Below, piece by piece: positions 8,913 to 23,630 of a DNA stretch of 24,656 bases (its first letter is position 1; each line of letters starts with the position of its first letter). Under the pieces are notes generated by a model. It did not search any database, was not told the DNA's origin, and saw nothing but the letters and a program-made list of their open reading frames with translations. The stretch comes from a virus. Location of the stretch: IMG/VR virus record IMGVR_UViG_3300006919_000413, positions 1 to 24,656 of that record. One strand, 5' to 3'. The position numbers were made by a program, and so were the translations under genes.

Positions 8913-9908
8913 GTGGCAGACACGACTGAAAACTCATTCGATGGCAGCATCGAGGCAGCAGTTGGTTTAATTACTCGTCCTGAAGAGCCAGAGACAGTTG
9001 AGCAAGAAGAAATTACAGAATCTGAGGATGTATCTCCAGAACTGGAAGCATCGGAATCAGAGGATGTTGATGACGCCGAAATCGACGACGGCGAGGAAGA
9101 TGAAGTAGAAGTCGAAATGTCGGACGATGACGAGGCAGATGACGAAGCCGATCAAGAAGCCCCAGTTCTATATACCGTCAAAGTTGATGGTAAAGAGGAA
9201 CAGGTAACGCTTGAGGATCTACAGCGAGGTTATTCAGGCCAGAAGTACGTCCAAAAAGGGATGCAAGAGGCAGCTGCTCAGAAAAAACAAGCTGAGGAGG
9301 TTTACTCTGCATTGCTAGCCGAACGGCAACAACTCGTTGACATGTATCAACAAATGCAACAAGGGCAGTTCTTGTCCAAGCCGAATCCACCATCGGAAGA
9401 ACTACTCGCCGAGGATCCAATCGGATACATCGAAGAGAAGGCGCGATACGATAAGGCTGTGGAGCAGTACAATCAGCAACAGGGCAAAATGAGCCAGCTC
9501 ATGCAGCAAAGTGAGCAAGCTCGAGAGCGCGCTGTTCAGGCGTATTTGCAGCAAGAAATGCAAAGCTTGGCAAATGTTATTCCTGAGTTTGGTGACGCCC
9601 AAAAGGCATCTAAACTTAAGAACAAATTGATCGATGGTGGCCAGAATCACTACGGCTACACGCAAGAAGAAATCGGTCAAATCATGGATCATCGAGCAAT
9701 CCGGGTTTTGAATGATGCGATCAAGTACCGCGAGATAGTCGCTGGCAAATCGAAGGCCGAGCAAAAAGCTAAGGGCGCGAAACCAGTTATCAAGCCGGGA
9801 GCTAAGAGAGCACAGAATCCAAGCCGTAAAGCAATGGATAAGCAAAAGGCTAGGCTTAAGAGAAGCGGTAGCATCGAGGATGCACTCGCTTTAATTGTTA
9901 ATGAATAA
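8913..9908 (+). CDS. Capsid scaffolding protein
   Basis: The protein has 331 residues. The start is GTG with GGGAG about 10 bases upstream, a weaker initiation site than those of its neighbours. Residues 18-75 are extremely acidic (runs of Asp/Glu). A short beta-like segment follows (YTVKVDGKEEQVTLEDLQRGY, about residues 88-108), of the kind common in phage scaffolding proteins, then a long Gln/Glu/Lys coiled-coil region. The C-terminus is very basic (from about residue 285), as needed for binding the inner capsid surface. Position directly before the major capsid gene fits an internal scaffold that is lost on maturation. No protease motif is visible. Confidence 0.88.
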   Translation: MADTTENSFDGSIEAAVGLITRPEEPETVEQEEITESEDVSPELEASESEDVDDAEIDDGEEDEVEVEMSDDDEADDEADQEAPVLYTVKVDGKEEQVTLEDLQRGYSGQKYVQKGMQEAAAQKKQAEEVYSALLAERQQLVDMYQQMQQGQFLSKPNPPSEELLAEDPIGYIEEKARYDKAVEQYNQQQGKMSQLMQQSEQARERAVQAYLQQEMQSLANVIPEFGDAQKASKLKNKLIDGGQNHYGYTQEEIGQIMDHRAIRVLNDAIKYREIVAGKSKAEQKAKGAKPVIKPGAKRAQNPSRKAMDKQKARLKRSGSIEDALALIVNE

Positions 9909-13451: not shown

Positions 13452-13699
13452 TCCCCGGACGCATCCTTGGCGCGCTCTGCATTGCGCTAGTGTGCCAAGG
13501 CTGTTCCATTATGACGGCCAAGAGGATCGTGGAGAAGCTACAGGAGCCGTCAGCGCCTATTTATAACATTACCTACGAATGTCCGGCTATGATGCCGCAG
13601 ACGGTCTTAGAGACCGTCCGGGAGTACATCATCATAGATGCTGAGATGGATCGTCACTTTGAGGAGTGTGACTTAGAAGTGGACTGTTTCCGGCCTTAG
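13448..13699 (+). CDS. Putative lipoprotein, outer spanin candidate
   Basis: The protein has 83 residues. Residues 6-18 are hydrophobic ([13 protein letters not shown]) and followed by C19-S20, giving an imperfect lipobox because position -3 is Cys. This suggests a secreted lipoprotein. The mature part has a further Cys pair and an acidic end ([13 protein letters not shown]). As the last gene of the rightward block next to several single-span coiled-coil membrane proteins, it could be an Rz1-like outer-membrane spanin subunit. It is longer and less Pro-rich than classical Rz1, so this is tentative. Its stop overlaps the stop of the opposite-strand gene by four bases. Confidence 0.72.
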
Positions 13700-14145
13700 C
13701 CGAAGTGTTTTGCACACTCCGGGCCAATGCCAGTCTTGATACTGTCTGGATGAGTAAGAGTGCGATTGCAGCGGCAGCAACGGCCCTCGTGCATGATCTC
13801 GAAACCGTCCATGTCTCGGCGGTACAACTTCATCAAAACCCACTGTAGCGCTTTAAAACTAGGGGCATCAGGCTTGCCTTTTTTACCAGCGAGCAATGGA
13901 TCAGCGTCAACTGGAAGCGCGTACTCTTTAAGGAATCCAATATACTGACTAGCCGCCCAGTCTTGATTGTCCGGGCCAGCAAGAACGCGCACAAAGTATG
14001 GAGCTGCGTCGCGCTCTCTCTCGCGTTTAGCTTGAGTCACTTTGTATGTGAAATGCTTATCAGTCTTGAGAGACTTGATAGTGAAGACAGCATTACCGCC
14101 GTAGATGAACTCAATTGCAGATTTGTGGTCGTCGAATTTGCTCAT
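13696..14145 (-). CDS. DUF6011 zinc-binding protein
   Basis: The protein has 149 residues. The C-terminus holds the DUF6011 signature: CCRCNRTLTHPDSIKTGIGP followed by EC, with cysteines arranged for one zinc. The first 120 residues form a domain with a TYKVTQAKRERERDAAPYFV strand pattern, common in phage DUF6011 proteins and possibly a DNA- or RNA-binding module. AGGAG followed by a run of A precedes the ATG. It has its own sigma70-like promoter (14199-14228) behind the terminator of the large minus-strand operon, so it is a separate unit. It converges on the late rightward genes with no spacer. Confidence 0.85.
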   Translation of the reverse strand: MSKFDDHKSAIEFIYGGNAVFTIKSLKTDKHFTYKVTQAKRERERDAAPYFVRVLAGPDNQDWAASQYIGFLKEYALPVDADPLLAGKKGKPDAPSFKALQWVLMKLYRRDMDGFEIMHEGRCCRCNRTLTHPDSIKTGIGPECAKHFG

Positions 14146-14198
14146 TTTTTTTCTCCTAGTTTAGATCGGTTGGCCAATTCCGCTCGATCGATGGCTCT

Positions 14199-14228
14199 AT
14201 TTAACCATGATTGACGCTTTTGTGTCAA
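14199..14228 (-). promoter_or_regulatory. Minus-strand promoter for the DUF6011 gene, with dyad
   Basis: On the minus strand TTGACA (14228-14223) is separated by 18 bases from TTAAAT (14204-14199). The -35 box is part of a perfect dyad TTGAC-8 bases-GTCAA (14228-14211). The 13 bases ATAGTGTTGACAC around the -35 box recur exactly at the promoter near 21540. The remaining leader to the ATG at 14145 contains CTAAAC just before AGGAG. Confidence 0.7.
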
Positions 14229-14238
14229 CACTATGATT

Positions 14239-14266
14239 AAAAAAAGGCCCACACGAAGTGGGCCTT
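14239..14266 (-). terminator. Terminator of the large minus-strand operon
   Basis: On the minus strand a 9-bp stem, AAGGCCCAC in plus coordinates (14244-14252) pairing with GTGGGCCTT (14258-14266), is followed by seven T (14245-14239). It lies 30 bases beyond the stop of the last operon gene at 14297. On the plus strand the hairpin lacks a T run. Confidence 0.88.
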
Positions 14267-14282
14267 AAAGAAGGAGAAAACT

Positions 14283-14324
14283 ATGAAAAAAGTAAGTCAA
14301 CCAAGCGAATTGAAAGCTTCGTAA
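14283..14324 (+). CDS. 13-codon plus-strand micro-ORF
   Basis: An ideal ribosome binding site, AAGGAG (14271-14276), stands 6 bases before an ATG that opens MKKVSQPSELKAS and stops. It is on the plus strand in an otherwise minus-strand region, just behind the hairpin at 14244-14266. A TTGACG-15 bp-TATGAT element (14211-14237) could serve as a weak promoter. It may be a leader peptide or the front end of a lost gene. The low confidence reflects its size and orientation. Confidence 0.3.
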   Translation: MKKVSQPSELKAS

Positions 14325-14515
14325 ACTCGCTCCACTTGATTATAACCGTATTTCTTGGCTAATGTGAGCGCCTCTGAAGCTTTGTATGTCTTCCCATCGA
14401 TAAACCTAAACAATGGCTCTCCATCCTTTATCTTATCTATTGCTACAAGATAGTAAGGCCCAAACTTAATGTGTTTGATCCTTTTGTTATGTTTTCTTAG
14501 ATTGAAACTAACCAT
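14297..14515 (-). CDS. Unknown small basic protein
   Basis: The protein has 72 residues. It starts at ATG 14515, overlapping the end of the preceding HTH gene by eight bases, and is probably translated by coupling since no clear ribosome binding site is seen. It is basic at the N-terminus (NLRKHNKRIKHIKFG) and then mixed alpha/beta with a DGKTYKASEALTLAKKYGY segment. It has no cysteines or membrane helix. It is the last gene before the operon terminator. I do not recognise it. Confidence 0.68.
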   Translation of the reverse strand: MVSFNLRKHNKRIKHIKFGPYYLVAIDKIKDGEPLFRFIDGKTYKASEALTLAKKYGYNQVERVYEAFNSLG

Positions 14516-14852
14516 ACATCCCAGCTACCAAATAAAACATCGCGAATATTGCAGCGCATCCTAGCAGCATCCCGCAGATCCCAATCCAGCTAATTTTGCT
14601 AAATAGTAGCGCATTGCGCTCGGGATCTAGGTAGATCTGGTCTTGCTCGATCTTCCCGGTGTAGAACAGTTGCTCTAACTTTTGCTTATTTTGATCAGAC
14701 GGCAAGTTAGCGCCGTTTTCCCAATCGCTCACTGTCTTGCGACTAACGCCAAGCATGACGGCAAGTTCACGCTGGCTAAGTTTAAGTTTAATCCTATGTG
14801 TCCGAATGTTATCGGCCGATCTCATGTTTTTAGTCAAGTTCCGTTCCACCAT
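14508..14852 (-). CDS. XRE-type HTH protein with C-terminal membrane helix
   Basis: The protein has 114 residues. ATG at 14852 is chosen because CGGAG lies 4-5 bases upstream; the longer frame to 14906 has no such site. Residues 12-62 are a canonical XRE/Cro helix-turn-helix (RTHRIKLKLSQRELAVMLGV then SRKTVSDWENG). Residues 87-110 are a strong transmembrane helix (ISWIGICGMLLGCAAIFAMF). A DNA-binding domain tethered to the membrane is unusual for a phage repressor and suggests a membrane-linked regulator or a host-interaction protein. The start overlaps the VRR-NUC gene by 23 bases. The domain calls are good; the biological role is unknown. Confidence 0.82.
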   Translation of the reverse strand: MVERNLTKNMRSADNIRTHRIKLKLSQRELAVMLGVSRKTVSDWENGANLPSDQNKQKLEQLFYTGKIEQDQIYLDPERNALLFSKISWIGICGMLLGCAAIFAMFYLVAGMYG

Positions 14853-18352: not shown

Positions 18353-18380
18353 AAAAAACATTGAGGGGCCGAAGCCCCTC
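18353..18380 (-). terminator. Terminator with TTCG loop inside the minus operon
   Basis: On the minus strand GAGGGGC (18380-18374), a TTCG tetraloop and GCCCCTC (18369-18363) form a very stable 7-bp hairpin. Four bases later there are six T (18358-18353), which run straight into GGAG of the next gene. It ends the Cro-like gene's transcript or acts as an attenuator between recombination genes and the downstream nuclease/helicase genes. Confidence 0.85.
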
Positions 18381-18386
18381 TTGTTA

Positions 18387-18608
18387 TTAAAATCCGACTC
18401 TCTCAACTATCAAGTTTGCAATCTTTGGGTCGACCAAGCCAACCACATCAATATCAAACTTTTTCGAGATAGTCTTCGCATGATTGATCGGGAAATATCC
18501 TCTTGACTTGCAATGTGCAATGTACTGCTGAGTTACTCCCAATATTTTGGCCAGATTTTTTTGTGTTCCGGCCTCATCAATTGCGTGATTAACAAAATTT
18601 CGTGCCAT
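18387..18608 (-). CDS. Cro/YdaS-like HTH protein
   Basis: The protein has 73 residues. ATG 18608 has AAGGAG exactly six bases upstream; the frame continues further without support. The pattern MARNFVNHAIDEAGTQKNLA followed by KILGVTQQYIAHCKSRGYFP matches small Cro/YdaS-type repressors, in which a glycine-Thr-Gln turn precedes the recognition helix and a G-x-x-P segment follows. It lies inside the recombination operon rather than at a divergent switch. It may be a feedback repressor of the early promoters. Its gene is the last one before an internal terminator. Confidence 0.82.
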   Translation of the reverse strand: MARNFVNHAIDEAGTQKNLAKILGVTQQYIAHCKSRGYFPINHAKTISKKFDIDVVGLVDPKIANLIVERVGF

Positions 18609-20136: not shown

Positions 20137-20186
20137 GTTTTCTCCAGTTAAATGGCGGTCGGAAAATCCCTTCGCCAATATTTAGG

Positions 20187-21035: not shown

Positions 21036-21180
21036 CTTTTTCTCCTTCAAGTTTTACTGAGTTTATTTTCCAATTGTCACCATGAAGATTCTCATGGCAG
21101 GCTTCGTCATAATGCATTTTTGCGGATGCGTGGTCAACGTACTCGCCGACCACATATCCGTTGACTATGACCTTAAACAC
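20950..21180 (-). CDS. Unknown small protein, GTG start by coupling
   Basis: The frame begins at GTG 21180, overlapping the stop of the previous gene (GTGTTTAA). The first 50 codons give a well-formed sequence (MFKVIVNGYVVGEYVDHASA ... HGDNWKINSVKLEGEK). The last 25 residues are basic and overlap the zinc-finger gene in another frame. No ribosome binding site is visible, so translation would rely on coupling. The front part looks coding; the tail may be out-of-frame reading after loss of an earlier stop. Confidence 0.5.
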   Translation of the reverse strand: MFKVIVNGYVVGEYVDHASAKMHYDEACHENLHGDNWKINSVKLEGEKVAGSKNENKSNARGRRSIHRGAILRLLQ

Positions 21181-21463
21181 CGAAGCGCAGCGAGAAGATC
21201 GCTGACGTGGTGGTGTACTTTTCGCGAGTGTTAGAGTCAACACCCATGTCATCAATCAAAGTCTTCCAGTCAAGAACTTTGCGATTTGCTTCAACGTAAG
21301 TTGCGTTGTACACGTTGCCGCAGACTTTCTTGATACCGCTGGCTTGGCACTGGTCTTTGATCTCTGCCTCGAGCGCTTTGATCTCGCGATTGTAATCAGC
21401 AACGATTTTCTTCATTGCGCCAACTTTGTCGACTAGTGTCTCGAGCGTGTTTTCTGCTTTCAT
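21173..21463 (-). CDS. Coiled-coil early protein
   Basis: The protein has 96 residues. ATG 21463 is preceded by TTAGGAG and seven A. Residues 1-38 form a coiled coil (ENTLETLVDKVGAMKKIVAD ...). The second half has a CQASGIKKVCGNVYNATYVE segment and a WKTLIDDMG segment. It somewhat resembles Gam/Gp157-type phage proteins (coil followed by a small beta hairpin), which bind DNA ends or nucleases, but the match is too weak to name it. It is the first gene behind a strong promoter, so it is probably made early and abundantly. Confidence 0.78.
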   Translation of the reverse strand: MKAENTLETLVDKVGAMKKIVADYNREIKALEAEIKDQCQASGIKKVCGNVYNATYVEANRKVLDWKTLIDDMGVDSNTREKYTTTSAIFSLRFGV

Positions 21464-21515
21464 TTTTTTCTCCTAAGTTTAGGACTGTCGGCCCATCCGG
21501 CTGTCCATGTATGTA

Positions 21516-21545
21516 ATTCTAAACCAACTGACAGAAAAGTGTCAA
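21516..21545 (-). promoter_or_regulatory. Minus-strand promoter with GTGTTGACAC box
   Basis: On the minus strand TTGACA (21545-21540) is separated by 18 bases from TAGAAT (21521-21516). The flanking ATAGTGTTGACAC is identical to that of the promoter at 14199-14228, and GTCA again occurs at positions 8-11 of the spacer, giving a TGAC...GTCA dyad. The leader carries CCTAAACTTAGG (21483-21472), an inverted repeat touching the ribosome binding site. Confidence 0.75.
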
Positions 21546-21547
21546 CA

Positions 21548-21724
21548 CTATTGAAAGTGTTTAGCCAACCATTTCAGAACTGCTGGTTTTGTTTTTGGTA
21601 GCGGCGGCAGCTCGCAGACAATCCAACCAAGGTGCTGGTACTTATCCGTGAGCTGCTGCGCTTCCTTGAGGGAGCCAACATATGCTGTTGGCCGCCCCTC
21701 GATACTTACACGATAGATCTTCAT
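21548..21724 (-). CDS. Unknown 58-residue protein
   Basis: ATG 21724 gives MKIYRVSIEGRPTAYVGSLK and onwards. An ATG at 21739, closer to the upstream stop, would add five residues and is equally possible by reinitiation. The product is mixed alpha/beta with LKEAQQLTDKYQHLGWIVCE and a basic end (VLKWLAKHFQ). It resembles small phage proteins that take the shape of a single beta-alpha-beta unit, with no function known to me. It ends just before the promoter at 21540. Confidence 0.65.
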   Translation of the reverse strand: MKIYRVSIEGRPTAYVGSLKEAQQLTDKYQHLGWIVCELPPLPKTKPAVLKWLAKHFQ

Positions 21725-22348: not shown

Positions 22349-22405
22349 GCAAAACCTCCAACTTTGTTTAGGACTTTCAGCGAAATGCTCTTTGTCCATA
22401 CCCCT

Positions 22406-22435
22406 ATTGTAAAACAGTTTTTCGTCCGAAGTCAA
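22406..22435 (-). promoter_or_regulatory. Leftward early promoter
   Basis: On the minus strand TTGACT (22435-22430) is separated by 18 bases from TACAAT (22411-22406). Both boxes are 5 of 6 matches to the sigma70 consensus. The spacing of 18 is the same as in the other two minus-strand promoters. The start point is predicted close to 22399. The 12-bp tandem repeat lies directly upstream of the -35 box. Confidence 0.8.
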
Positions 22436-22437
22436 AC

Positions 22438-22461
22438 AATATCGATAAAAATATTGATAAA
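22438..22461. repeat. 12-bp tandem repeat between divergent promoters
   Basis: AATATCGATAAA is followed without a gap by AATATTGATAAA (11 of 12 identical). It lies between the leftward -35 box (22430-22435) and the rightward -35 box (22479-22484). It may be a repressor operator, an UP-like A/T element, or part of an origin. The whole spacer 22349-22561 holds no gene or tRNA that I can see, only these control elements. Confidence 0.65.
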
Positions 22462-22478
22462 AAAACGTCATTTAGGGG

Positions 22479-23063: not shown

Positions 23064-23084
23064 CGCGCTACGTCCCTTTTTATT
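23051..23084. terminator. Bidirectional terminator
   Basis: GGGAC (23055-23059) pairs with GTCCC (23072-23076), extended inwards by TAG/CTA around a CGCG loop and flanked by A on the left and five T (23077-23081) on the right. It serves the rightward gene, whose stop TAG lies inside the stem, and, read on the minus strand, ends in TTTT after the HExxH gene. Confidence 0.8.
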
Positions 23085-23358
23085 CTGTCAGGTTGAGATA
23101 AATCCTCTCGATCTTGGCGCACTCGATCTCGCGGCTCTCCCACTCTTTCCAAGTCTGGGCTGGTTTATTCCCGGCTCTGGCATACTGAGCCGCGTGACAC
23201 GCCTCGTGGAGAATCACGTTTGGTTTATTCATGTGTGGCGCAAGGTAAATCACCGGGATATCGCCAGCGAGGAAAAAGGTCGCATTGCTTGGCGTGATAA
23301 CCGTGTTATCAGGATATTGCAGATTGAACAGCAAGAGAAAACTAATTAGTTCTTTCAT
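23080..23358 (-). CDS. Exported HExxH metallopeptidase-like protein
   Basis: The protein has 92 residues. ATG 23358 has GGAGG five bases upstream. The N-terminus (KELISFLLLFNLQYP) is hydrophobic and may be a signal peptide or anchor. The segment NVILHEACHAAQYARAG contains HEACH (51-55), the zinc-binding HExxH motif of metallopeptidases, and a downstream WESREIEC supplies a candidate third ligand (E77 or E79). The protein is small, so it may be a minimal peptidase, an inactive relative or a truncated domain. It is the only minus-strand gene among rightward genes here and has its own terminator and a TTGACA element upstream (23414-23409), like a moron. Confidence 0.78.
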   Translation of the reverse strand: MKELISFLLLFNLQYPDNTVITPSNATFFLAGDIPVIYLAPHMNKPNVILHEACHAAQYARAGNKPAQTWKEWESREIECAKIERIYLNLTE

Positions 23359-23441: not shown

Positions 23442-23630
23442 ATGGAATTACAAGAAATCAAAGACTTACTGTCTGACCGCAATCTTACCGAGGTCAGTCG
23501 CCGCACCAATGTCAGTTACTCGACGCTCAGGAATATACTGAGTGGGCGGTCGGTTGATCCGAGCTACAGCACCATCGACAAGTTGAGAAAGTATCTGATG
23601 TCAACATGTCCGAGGTGCGTCAATGGCTGA
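23442..23630 (+). CDS. Small Cro-type HTH protein
   Basis: The protein has 62 residues. ATG 23442 is preceded by AAGGAG at ideal spacing. Residues 10-45 (SDRNLTEVSRRTNVSYSTLR then NILSGRSVDPSYST) form a helix-turn-helix of the XRE/Cro kind, followed by a short helix and a C-terminal CPRC segment. As the first gene behind its promoter it is a good candidate for a regulator of the divergent early region. Its end overlaps the next gene by eight bases. Confidence 0.82.
   Translation: MELQEIKDLLSDRNLTEVSRRTNVSYSTLRNILSGRSVDPSYSTIDKLRKYLMSTCPRCVNG

Follow-up and report, generated by a model that had tools for sequence, protein, structure and literature searches.

Two distant early promoters of an environmental phage share a plausible operator and a covarying leader hairpin that probably belong to one repeated early-gene cassette

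In operators of the Cro/CI type an inverted repeat covers the −35 and spacer of an early promoter, and a small divergent HTH gene lies beside a replication gene. The phage locus described here has both traits; however, it carries two same-strand promoters 7 kb apart instead of one divergent switch, its inverted repeat is a candidate site only, and there is no clear site at the candidate regulator's own promoter. RNA structure straight after early promoters, in more than one copy per genome, is a feature of HK022 put and of the lambda nut boxB. The place of the put sites resembles that of the hairpin reported below, although put is much longer than 25–27 nt; here there is a single hairpin of 25–27 nt, and no boxA was noticed by eye. 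Stem-loops at the 5′ end that stabilise mRNA are found in T7 class III leaders, and the ompA 5′ stem-loop is longer than the phage hairpin. The latter resembles the ompA and papA structures in standing at a predicted 5′ end before a Shine-Dalgarno sequence, and is unlike them in its conserved internal loop and in occurring as several covarying copies per genome in many phages. As a covarying 5′ UTR element it is also comparable to the cis-regulatory leaders of Rfam 15, but no Rfam 15 match overlaps it, either in the window (searched to E 5) or at six further loci (searched to E 1). Stabilisation of mRNA by known 5′ stem-loops is described in passages of PMC3997798. Leader hairpins are a known kind of element, but this one recurs before several early genes of each genome, always with much the same spacing from the promoter.

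The DNA searched was a whole record, a virus contig of 24,656 bases, which we call the window. Megablast of the window gave no GenBank phage match, and its portal protein is nearest to that of Octadecabacter Antarctic DB virus 2 (47.6% identity). The early operon runs from 21463 to 14297 with one of the two promoters (B) at its head; the other (A) stands before a short last unit, the DUF6011 gene, beyond which lie convergent late genes.

14199–14228, minus strand: promoter A, TTGACA (14228–14223), 18-base spacer, TTAAAT (14204–14199), ahead of the DUF6011 gene 13696–14145
21516–21545, minus strand: promoter B, TTGACA (21545–21540), 18-base spacer, TAGAAT (21521–21516), head of the early operon
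22406–22435, minus strand: third promoter, TTGACT, 18-base spacer, TACAAT, ahead of gene 21953, without the AAAAGYG core described below
14244–14266, minus strand: terminator-like stem-loop and T run that ends the early operon, directly before promoter A

A −35 and a −10 at 16–18 bases, as in sigma70 promoters, are found at A, at B and in the positional profile of 102 hairpin copies. Promoter B is the top match of a consensus promoter scan (11/12), which listed 14 promoters in the window against 20.5 in shuffles and thus no excess. The −10 of promoter A (TTAAAT) is weak and the scan did not list it. Orthologues of promoter A are present in the related contigs L006, L007, L009 and L010, and those of L006, L009 and L010 have CATAAT or TATAAT as their −10 with unchanged spacing.

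It had been predicted from the window alone that both promoters carry ATAGTGTTGACAC at the −35 box, an 18-base spacer and GTCA at the same place within it. This is borne out, GTCA occupying spacer positions 8–11 in each. ATAGTGTTGACAC occurs exactly twice in the record, at 14222–14234 and 21539–21551, both on the minus strand, with no further place in the record within 1 mismatch. At up to 3 mismatches it is not enriched (7 places against 5.1 expected). The dyads, originally given as TGAC and GTCA separated by 8 to 10 bases, exist at both promoters with a spacing of N8 in each, and are better described by the 18-bp pattern TTGACAC-N4-GTGTCAA.

14211–14228: operator-like dyad A, TTGACAC-N4-GTGTCAA with 1 mismatch
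21528–21545: operator-like dyad B, TTGACAC-N4-GTGTCAA with 2 mismatches

This pattern, which was formulated after inspection of relatives, has 2 sites in the window when up to 2 mismatches are allowed; 100 dinucleotide shuffles averaged 0.05, and none had two. The A4 tract reads AAAA in promoter A and TTTT in promoter B, which a symmetric site allows. The 13-mer ATAGTGTTGACAC was rejected as the conserved unit because its ATAG is lost in orthologues. A GTGTTGACAC-N6-GTCA pattern was also dropped, since it matches at least 119 viral-contig stretches, about chance by estimate, and so does not trace the operator by itself. Repeated TTGACACTTCACAGTCA-type promoters with TAATGT-like −10 boxes were seen in L040, L059, L107 and similar contigs, with three exact pattern matches on one 58.6-kb contig; they seem to form a separate family of operators or promoters.

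Within the clade of the window, the dyad is represented by an AAAAGYG core. Among hairpin-led clade promoters this core lies within 70 nt upstream in 14 of 18, against a mean of 0.32 and a maximum of 3 in 500 mononucleotide shuffles, the motif having been derived from some of these 18; it is present in none of 32 hairpin-led promoters of other phages, both lists being hand-picked from model matches. The 12 Sak4-proximal clade copies, outside the 18 and counted separately, also lack it (0/12). The core starts about 30–34 nt before the hairpin in eight promoters, 44 in four and 53 in two; it lies over the −35 and spacer or 13 or 22 bp farther upstream. As its position shifts relative to the −35, it is more than a promoter consensus. 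The full dyad has 1 mismatch in front of the gene B orthologues of L139 and L007, 3 in L163, 5 in L006 and L140 and 7 in L010; in front of the DUF6011 orthologues it has 3 in L006 and 2 in L009 and L010, and it was not found at the DUF6011 promoter of L007. The gene B dyad of L007 is identical letter for letter to dyad A of the window. Overall, the dyad covers the promoter beyond chance and is conserved, though degraded in some relatives. The shared operator of the original prediction is plausible on these grounds, in particular the clade-specific core, with the reservations that the dyad decays in orthologues and that ATAG is not conserved. By eye, hairpin-led promoters of other phages (L158, L173, L187, L220, L253) show one dyad arm at the −35 and the other immediately downstream of the −10, for example GTGTTGAC...GTCAACAC, TGCTTGCA...TGCAAGCA and GGGTTGAC...GTCAACCC. 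A weak dyad-like site (score 10.9) lies at 22454–22471, between the divergent genes 22514 (plus strand) and 21953 (minus strand).

Three HTH proteins encoded in the window had been put forward as possible binding factors. All three are indeed HTH-like, with Pfam assignments of HTH_3, YdaS-like (below the Pfam cut-off) and HTH_3, respectively.

14508–14852, minus strand: HTH1, HTH protein with a hydrophobic C-terminus, the weaker candidate
18387–18608, minus strand: HTH2, YdaS-like, in the window's own lineage only, unlikely to be a shared factor
23442–23630, plus strand: HTH3, Cro-like HTH, divergent from 23080–23358 and followed by a TOPRIM/primase gene, the best candidate

In tblastn searches HTH2 was found only in a contig nearly identical to the window. 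It was not found in L139, L007 or L010, which all cover its place and carry dyads with 2 or fewer mismatches, and was rejected as a shared factor because these three relatives retain the dyad. HTH1 and HTH3 are both conserved. We compared the helices that, going by the HTH fold, would be the recognition helices: that of HTH1 reads HYKTISKWE in L007 against SRKTVSDWE, and the YSTLRNI of HTH3 is identical in the four aligned clade members (window, L139, L140 and L007). Since L007 has the same dyad as promoter A, a different HTH1 helix and an unchanged YSTLRNI, HTH3 is favoured over HTH1. HTH3 adjoins the primase gene and is divergent from the recombination operon, and annotated regulators are similarly placed in Idiomarinaceae phage 1N2-2, Salicola phage CGphi29 and Alteromonas phage PB15. 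At its own promoter the dyad scores poorly, the best values being 4 mismatches in the window and 12.8 in L007; this counts against HTH3, as an autoregulator would be expected to bind there. HTH3 is the best candidate for the predicted dyad-binding factor. The C-terminal hydrophobic stretch of HTH1 could be a membrane anchor.

The likeness of A and B extends downstream from the promoter into a leader that is the better conserved part, consisting of a two-part hairpin followed by TAAAC(T)TAGGAG with the ribosome-binding site. The hairpin measures 25–27 nt and has an outer stem of 4–5 bp, an internal loop, an inner stem of 2–3 bp and a small apical loop. Two models were used for searches: R1 was built from ten clade leaders and R2 from 62 matches, partly from the Sak4 loci described below. 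The R2 E values listed for the first three copies are those of members of its training set, from which only the Sak4-proximal copy of the window was excluded.

14164–14189, minus strand: hairpin A, GAUCG/CGAUC outer stem, at the predicted start of the DUF6011 mRNA (R2 match 14152–14190, E 1e-5)
21482–21506, minus strand: hairpin B, GGAC/GUCC outer stem, at the predicted start of the early operon mRNA (R2 match 21470–21507, E 5.7e-7)
22371–22397, minus strand: third hairpin, GGAC/GUCC, before the ribosome-binding site of gene 21953 (R1 E 0.018, R2 E 5.6e-5)
20153–20177, minus strand: fourth hairpin, UGGCG/CGCCA, before the Sak4 gene inside the operon (R1 E 0.67, R2 E 1.2e-4)
14153–14157, minus strand: Shine-Dalgarno sequence AGGAG of the DUF6011 gene
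21470–21474, minus strand: Shine-Dalgarno sequence AGGAG of gene 21173–21463 (gene B)

The ten clade leaders, which were selected by gene and not by structure, share a similar fold when folded individually. In their MAFFT alignment 95.7% of 70 cells are paired, five of the seven pairs have changed on both sides, and the covariation is 0.711 against 0.182 in shuffles (0/500); one inner pair is unpaired in three of the ten. Extending the MAFFT alignment to 65 distinct copies gave an outer stem paired in 91.1% of 325 cells and a covariation of 0.768 against 0.185 (0/500), and a rule-based parse of these copies yielded 36 different outer-arm pairs. Compensatory changes of the kind expected of a structured RNA leader are therefore present in alignments that are blind to structure. 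Of the 65 inner stems, 41 are CGG/CCG, and the remainder include CAG/CUG, CUG/CAG and others. Among unpaired positions, conservation is highest for the A at alignment columns 7, 12 and 27 (1.3–1.7 bits), and the middle outer pairs carry 0.4 bits. Within the window itself the outer-stem letters differ between copies (GGAC, GATCG, GGAC and TGGCG) and the structure is kept. Copies of one genome with the same structure and different stem letters point to an RNA fold rather than to a DNA-binding protein, and we infer that the hairpin acts as RNA. The conserved internal loop in turn suggests that something reads it. An alternative pairing of UCCU with the Shine-Dalgarno sequence, assessed by eye, was dropped because it is impossible in some copies, and ACGGA was not retained as a CsrA-type ANGGA motif, since the copies whose inner stems are CAG/CUG or CUG/CAG have no GGA.

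The hairpin keeps a fixed position relative to promoter and gene. The first three hairpins of the window (B, A and the one before gene 21953) lie 8–9 nt downstream of the −10. When 102 distinct copies are aligned on the stem, TAnAAT ends 10 bases before it, TTGACA occupies bases 39–34 before it, and a likely A-rich start lies 3 bases upstream. If transcription starts at this conserved A, the hairpin is probably 5′-terminal with 2–3 unpaired bases. Downstream of 99 of the 102 copies come a Shine-Dalgarno-like stretch, loosely defined for this count, and a start codon that opens an ORF of 25 or more codons, so that the hairpin occupies a fixed place in the 5′ UTR ahead of the ribosome-binding site. 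Twelve Sak4-proximal clade copies lie inside the operon; by eye, most have a −10-like TAATAT or TAAAAT and no clear −35 was seen, making a 5′-terminal place uncertain for these copies.

With R1, further copies were found in the window, its relatives and GenBank phages. We then used a set of viral Sak4 loci, the best 80 of 580 relatives, fetched with the Sak4 protein. R1 gave 48 matches in 40 of these 80 at E ≤ 0.1, and R2, for which part of them were training loci, gave 89 matches in 72, of which 87 were on the sense strand; the other 8 of the best 80 had no R2 match. Nine of 43 bacterial genome contigs were also matched by R2, against no match at E ≤ 1 in a control of 91 other loci (831,300 bases). 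Independently of any model, the stem pattern occurs within the 75 nt that precede the start codon of Sak4 in 49 of 79 loci from the best 80, compared with a mean of 5.9 and a maximum of 12 in shuffles. One exact hairpin allele is present in 56 viral stretches; 54 of these have an ORF next, which is Sak4 in 35, gene-B-like in 7 and another gene in 12. Gene-B-like proteins also lie downstream of the hairpin in other phages, and the gene B product itself (21173–21463) resembles Mu Gam only very weakly (E 0.07).

A further 22 contigs or records searched whole had 0–3 matches each at E ≤ 0.1, and in the clade contigs searched whole the matches are confined to the early region. Idiomarinaceae phage 1N2-2 is matched by R2 (E 1.1e-4). 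R2 found no match at E ≤ 0.5 in nine phages with related genes (L156, L159, L283–L289), namely the Octadecabacter virus, Salicola, Alteromonas PB15, Moraxella Mcat32, Seurat, RHph_X3_2, Sulfitobacter M39, Me-ZS1 and PaMx25, and the hairpin is therefore missing from some Sak4 phages. The leaders of the Salicola phage (L159) and Alteromonas PB15 (L283) look similar by eye and, being unmatched by the models, were not counted. The match at 9681–9717 of L139, which falls within coding sequence, is probably false and remained in the R2 training set. Weak R1 matches in L015/L016 (E 0.4) and L012–L014 (E 4.5) were not recovered by R2. Titles and abstract beginnings on Sak4 with UTR and hairpin, on HK022 put RNA and on related topics, in a collection with few subscription journals, showed nothing alike, so that a prior description is possible.

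Cassette parts, fixed spacing, covarying stems and conservation in related phages recur together at A and B, and we consider it rather probable that the two are copies of one early-gene cassette with a repressor dyad and a 5′ hairpin working as RNA. Such a cassette would begin with a sigma70-type promoter whose −35 and spacer are overlaid by the clade-specific dyad, followed by the 5′ hairpin and then by a Shine-Dalgarno sequence and start codon; the two distant promoters would be alike because they are copies of this larger unit. The dyad would be the operator of the phage repressor, most likely the Cro-like HTH3, which would shut promoters B and A together. Transcription would start 2–3 bases upstream of the hairpin, which may shield the 5′ end of early mRNAs and set their stability or translation, with a protein probably reading its conserved internal loop. 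Against the cassette, the dyad has decayed to 3, 5 and 7 mismatches at some of the orthologous promoters, and the third copy's promoter lacks the core. For the hairpin considered by itself, a 5′-terminal element controlling mRNA stability or translation is the most likely function. The 5′-terminal place and the 2–3 unpaired bases predicted here, which recall the mRNA-stabilising 5′ stem-loops in passages of PMC3997798, together with outer-stem pairing kept in free sequence, would also suit a pure clamp protecting early mRNAs from RppH and RNase E without any specific binder. We regard this as unlikely, since the internal loop and the inner-stem flanks are conserved in sequence, which would be superfluous for a clamp. 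A put-like antitermination, with the nascent hairpin RNA binding RNA polymerase so that early transcripts pass terminators, would explain why the hairpin stands at the head of early transcripts with constant promoter spacing, and why its several copies occur nowhere but in the early region of the searched contigs. A terminator-like hairpin even lies inside the window's early operon, at 18363–18380, immediately after the HTH2 gene; this gene, however, is an insertion of the window's lineage only, the hairpin also precedes the mid-operon Sak4 gene, and at the short DUF6011 last unit readthrough has no evident use, which together make antitermination quite improbable. A tentative but wider possibility is a widespread phage RNA regulon: a single trans-acting factor, either host RNA polymerase or an RNA-binding protein of the phage, would recognise the hairpin at the 5′ end of several early transcripts, with clade-specific repressors acting on the DNA. 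All early units would then be jointly controlled at the RNA level.

Two other readings bear on the dyad, and one of them on the hairpin as well. A recent duplication of the promoter region, leaving dyad and hairpin functionless, would account for the Shine-Dalgarno stretch and leader that A and B also share. It is very hard to reconcile with four copies that differ in stem sequence and not in structure and with orthologues bearing compensating changes; the covariation already contradicts it. The dyad might instead be a host regulator's site or merely a favoured form of the −35, with no phage HTH protein bound to it. GTGTTGACA-like −35 regions are common in the hairpin-led promoters of other phages too, and HTH3's own promoter has no clear site. 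This is nevertheless doubtful, as the AAAAGYG core is clade-specific and also found upstream of the −35, and as other phages have, by eye, other dyads at the equivalent place, as expected of phage-specific repressors.

The hairpin is carried by many environmental phages with Sak4 recombination genes and, in the window and six other loci, is unmatched at gathering score by the families of Rfam 15. If a factor reads it, it would offer a handle on how early genes are switched on in such phages, and the covariance model can be used by anyone to find further copies.

Just ahead of the operon terminator, the minus strand at 14266–14290 carries a CU-rich stretch, TTCTCCTTC, that is complementary to Shine-Dalgarno sequences. 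The region has a weak match to the Rfam suhB/mmgR sRNA model (28.1 bits against a cut-off of 41), and similar CTCCT stretches lie at the equivalent place in L006, L007, L009, L010, L139 and L145–L147.
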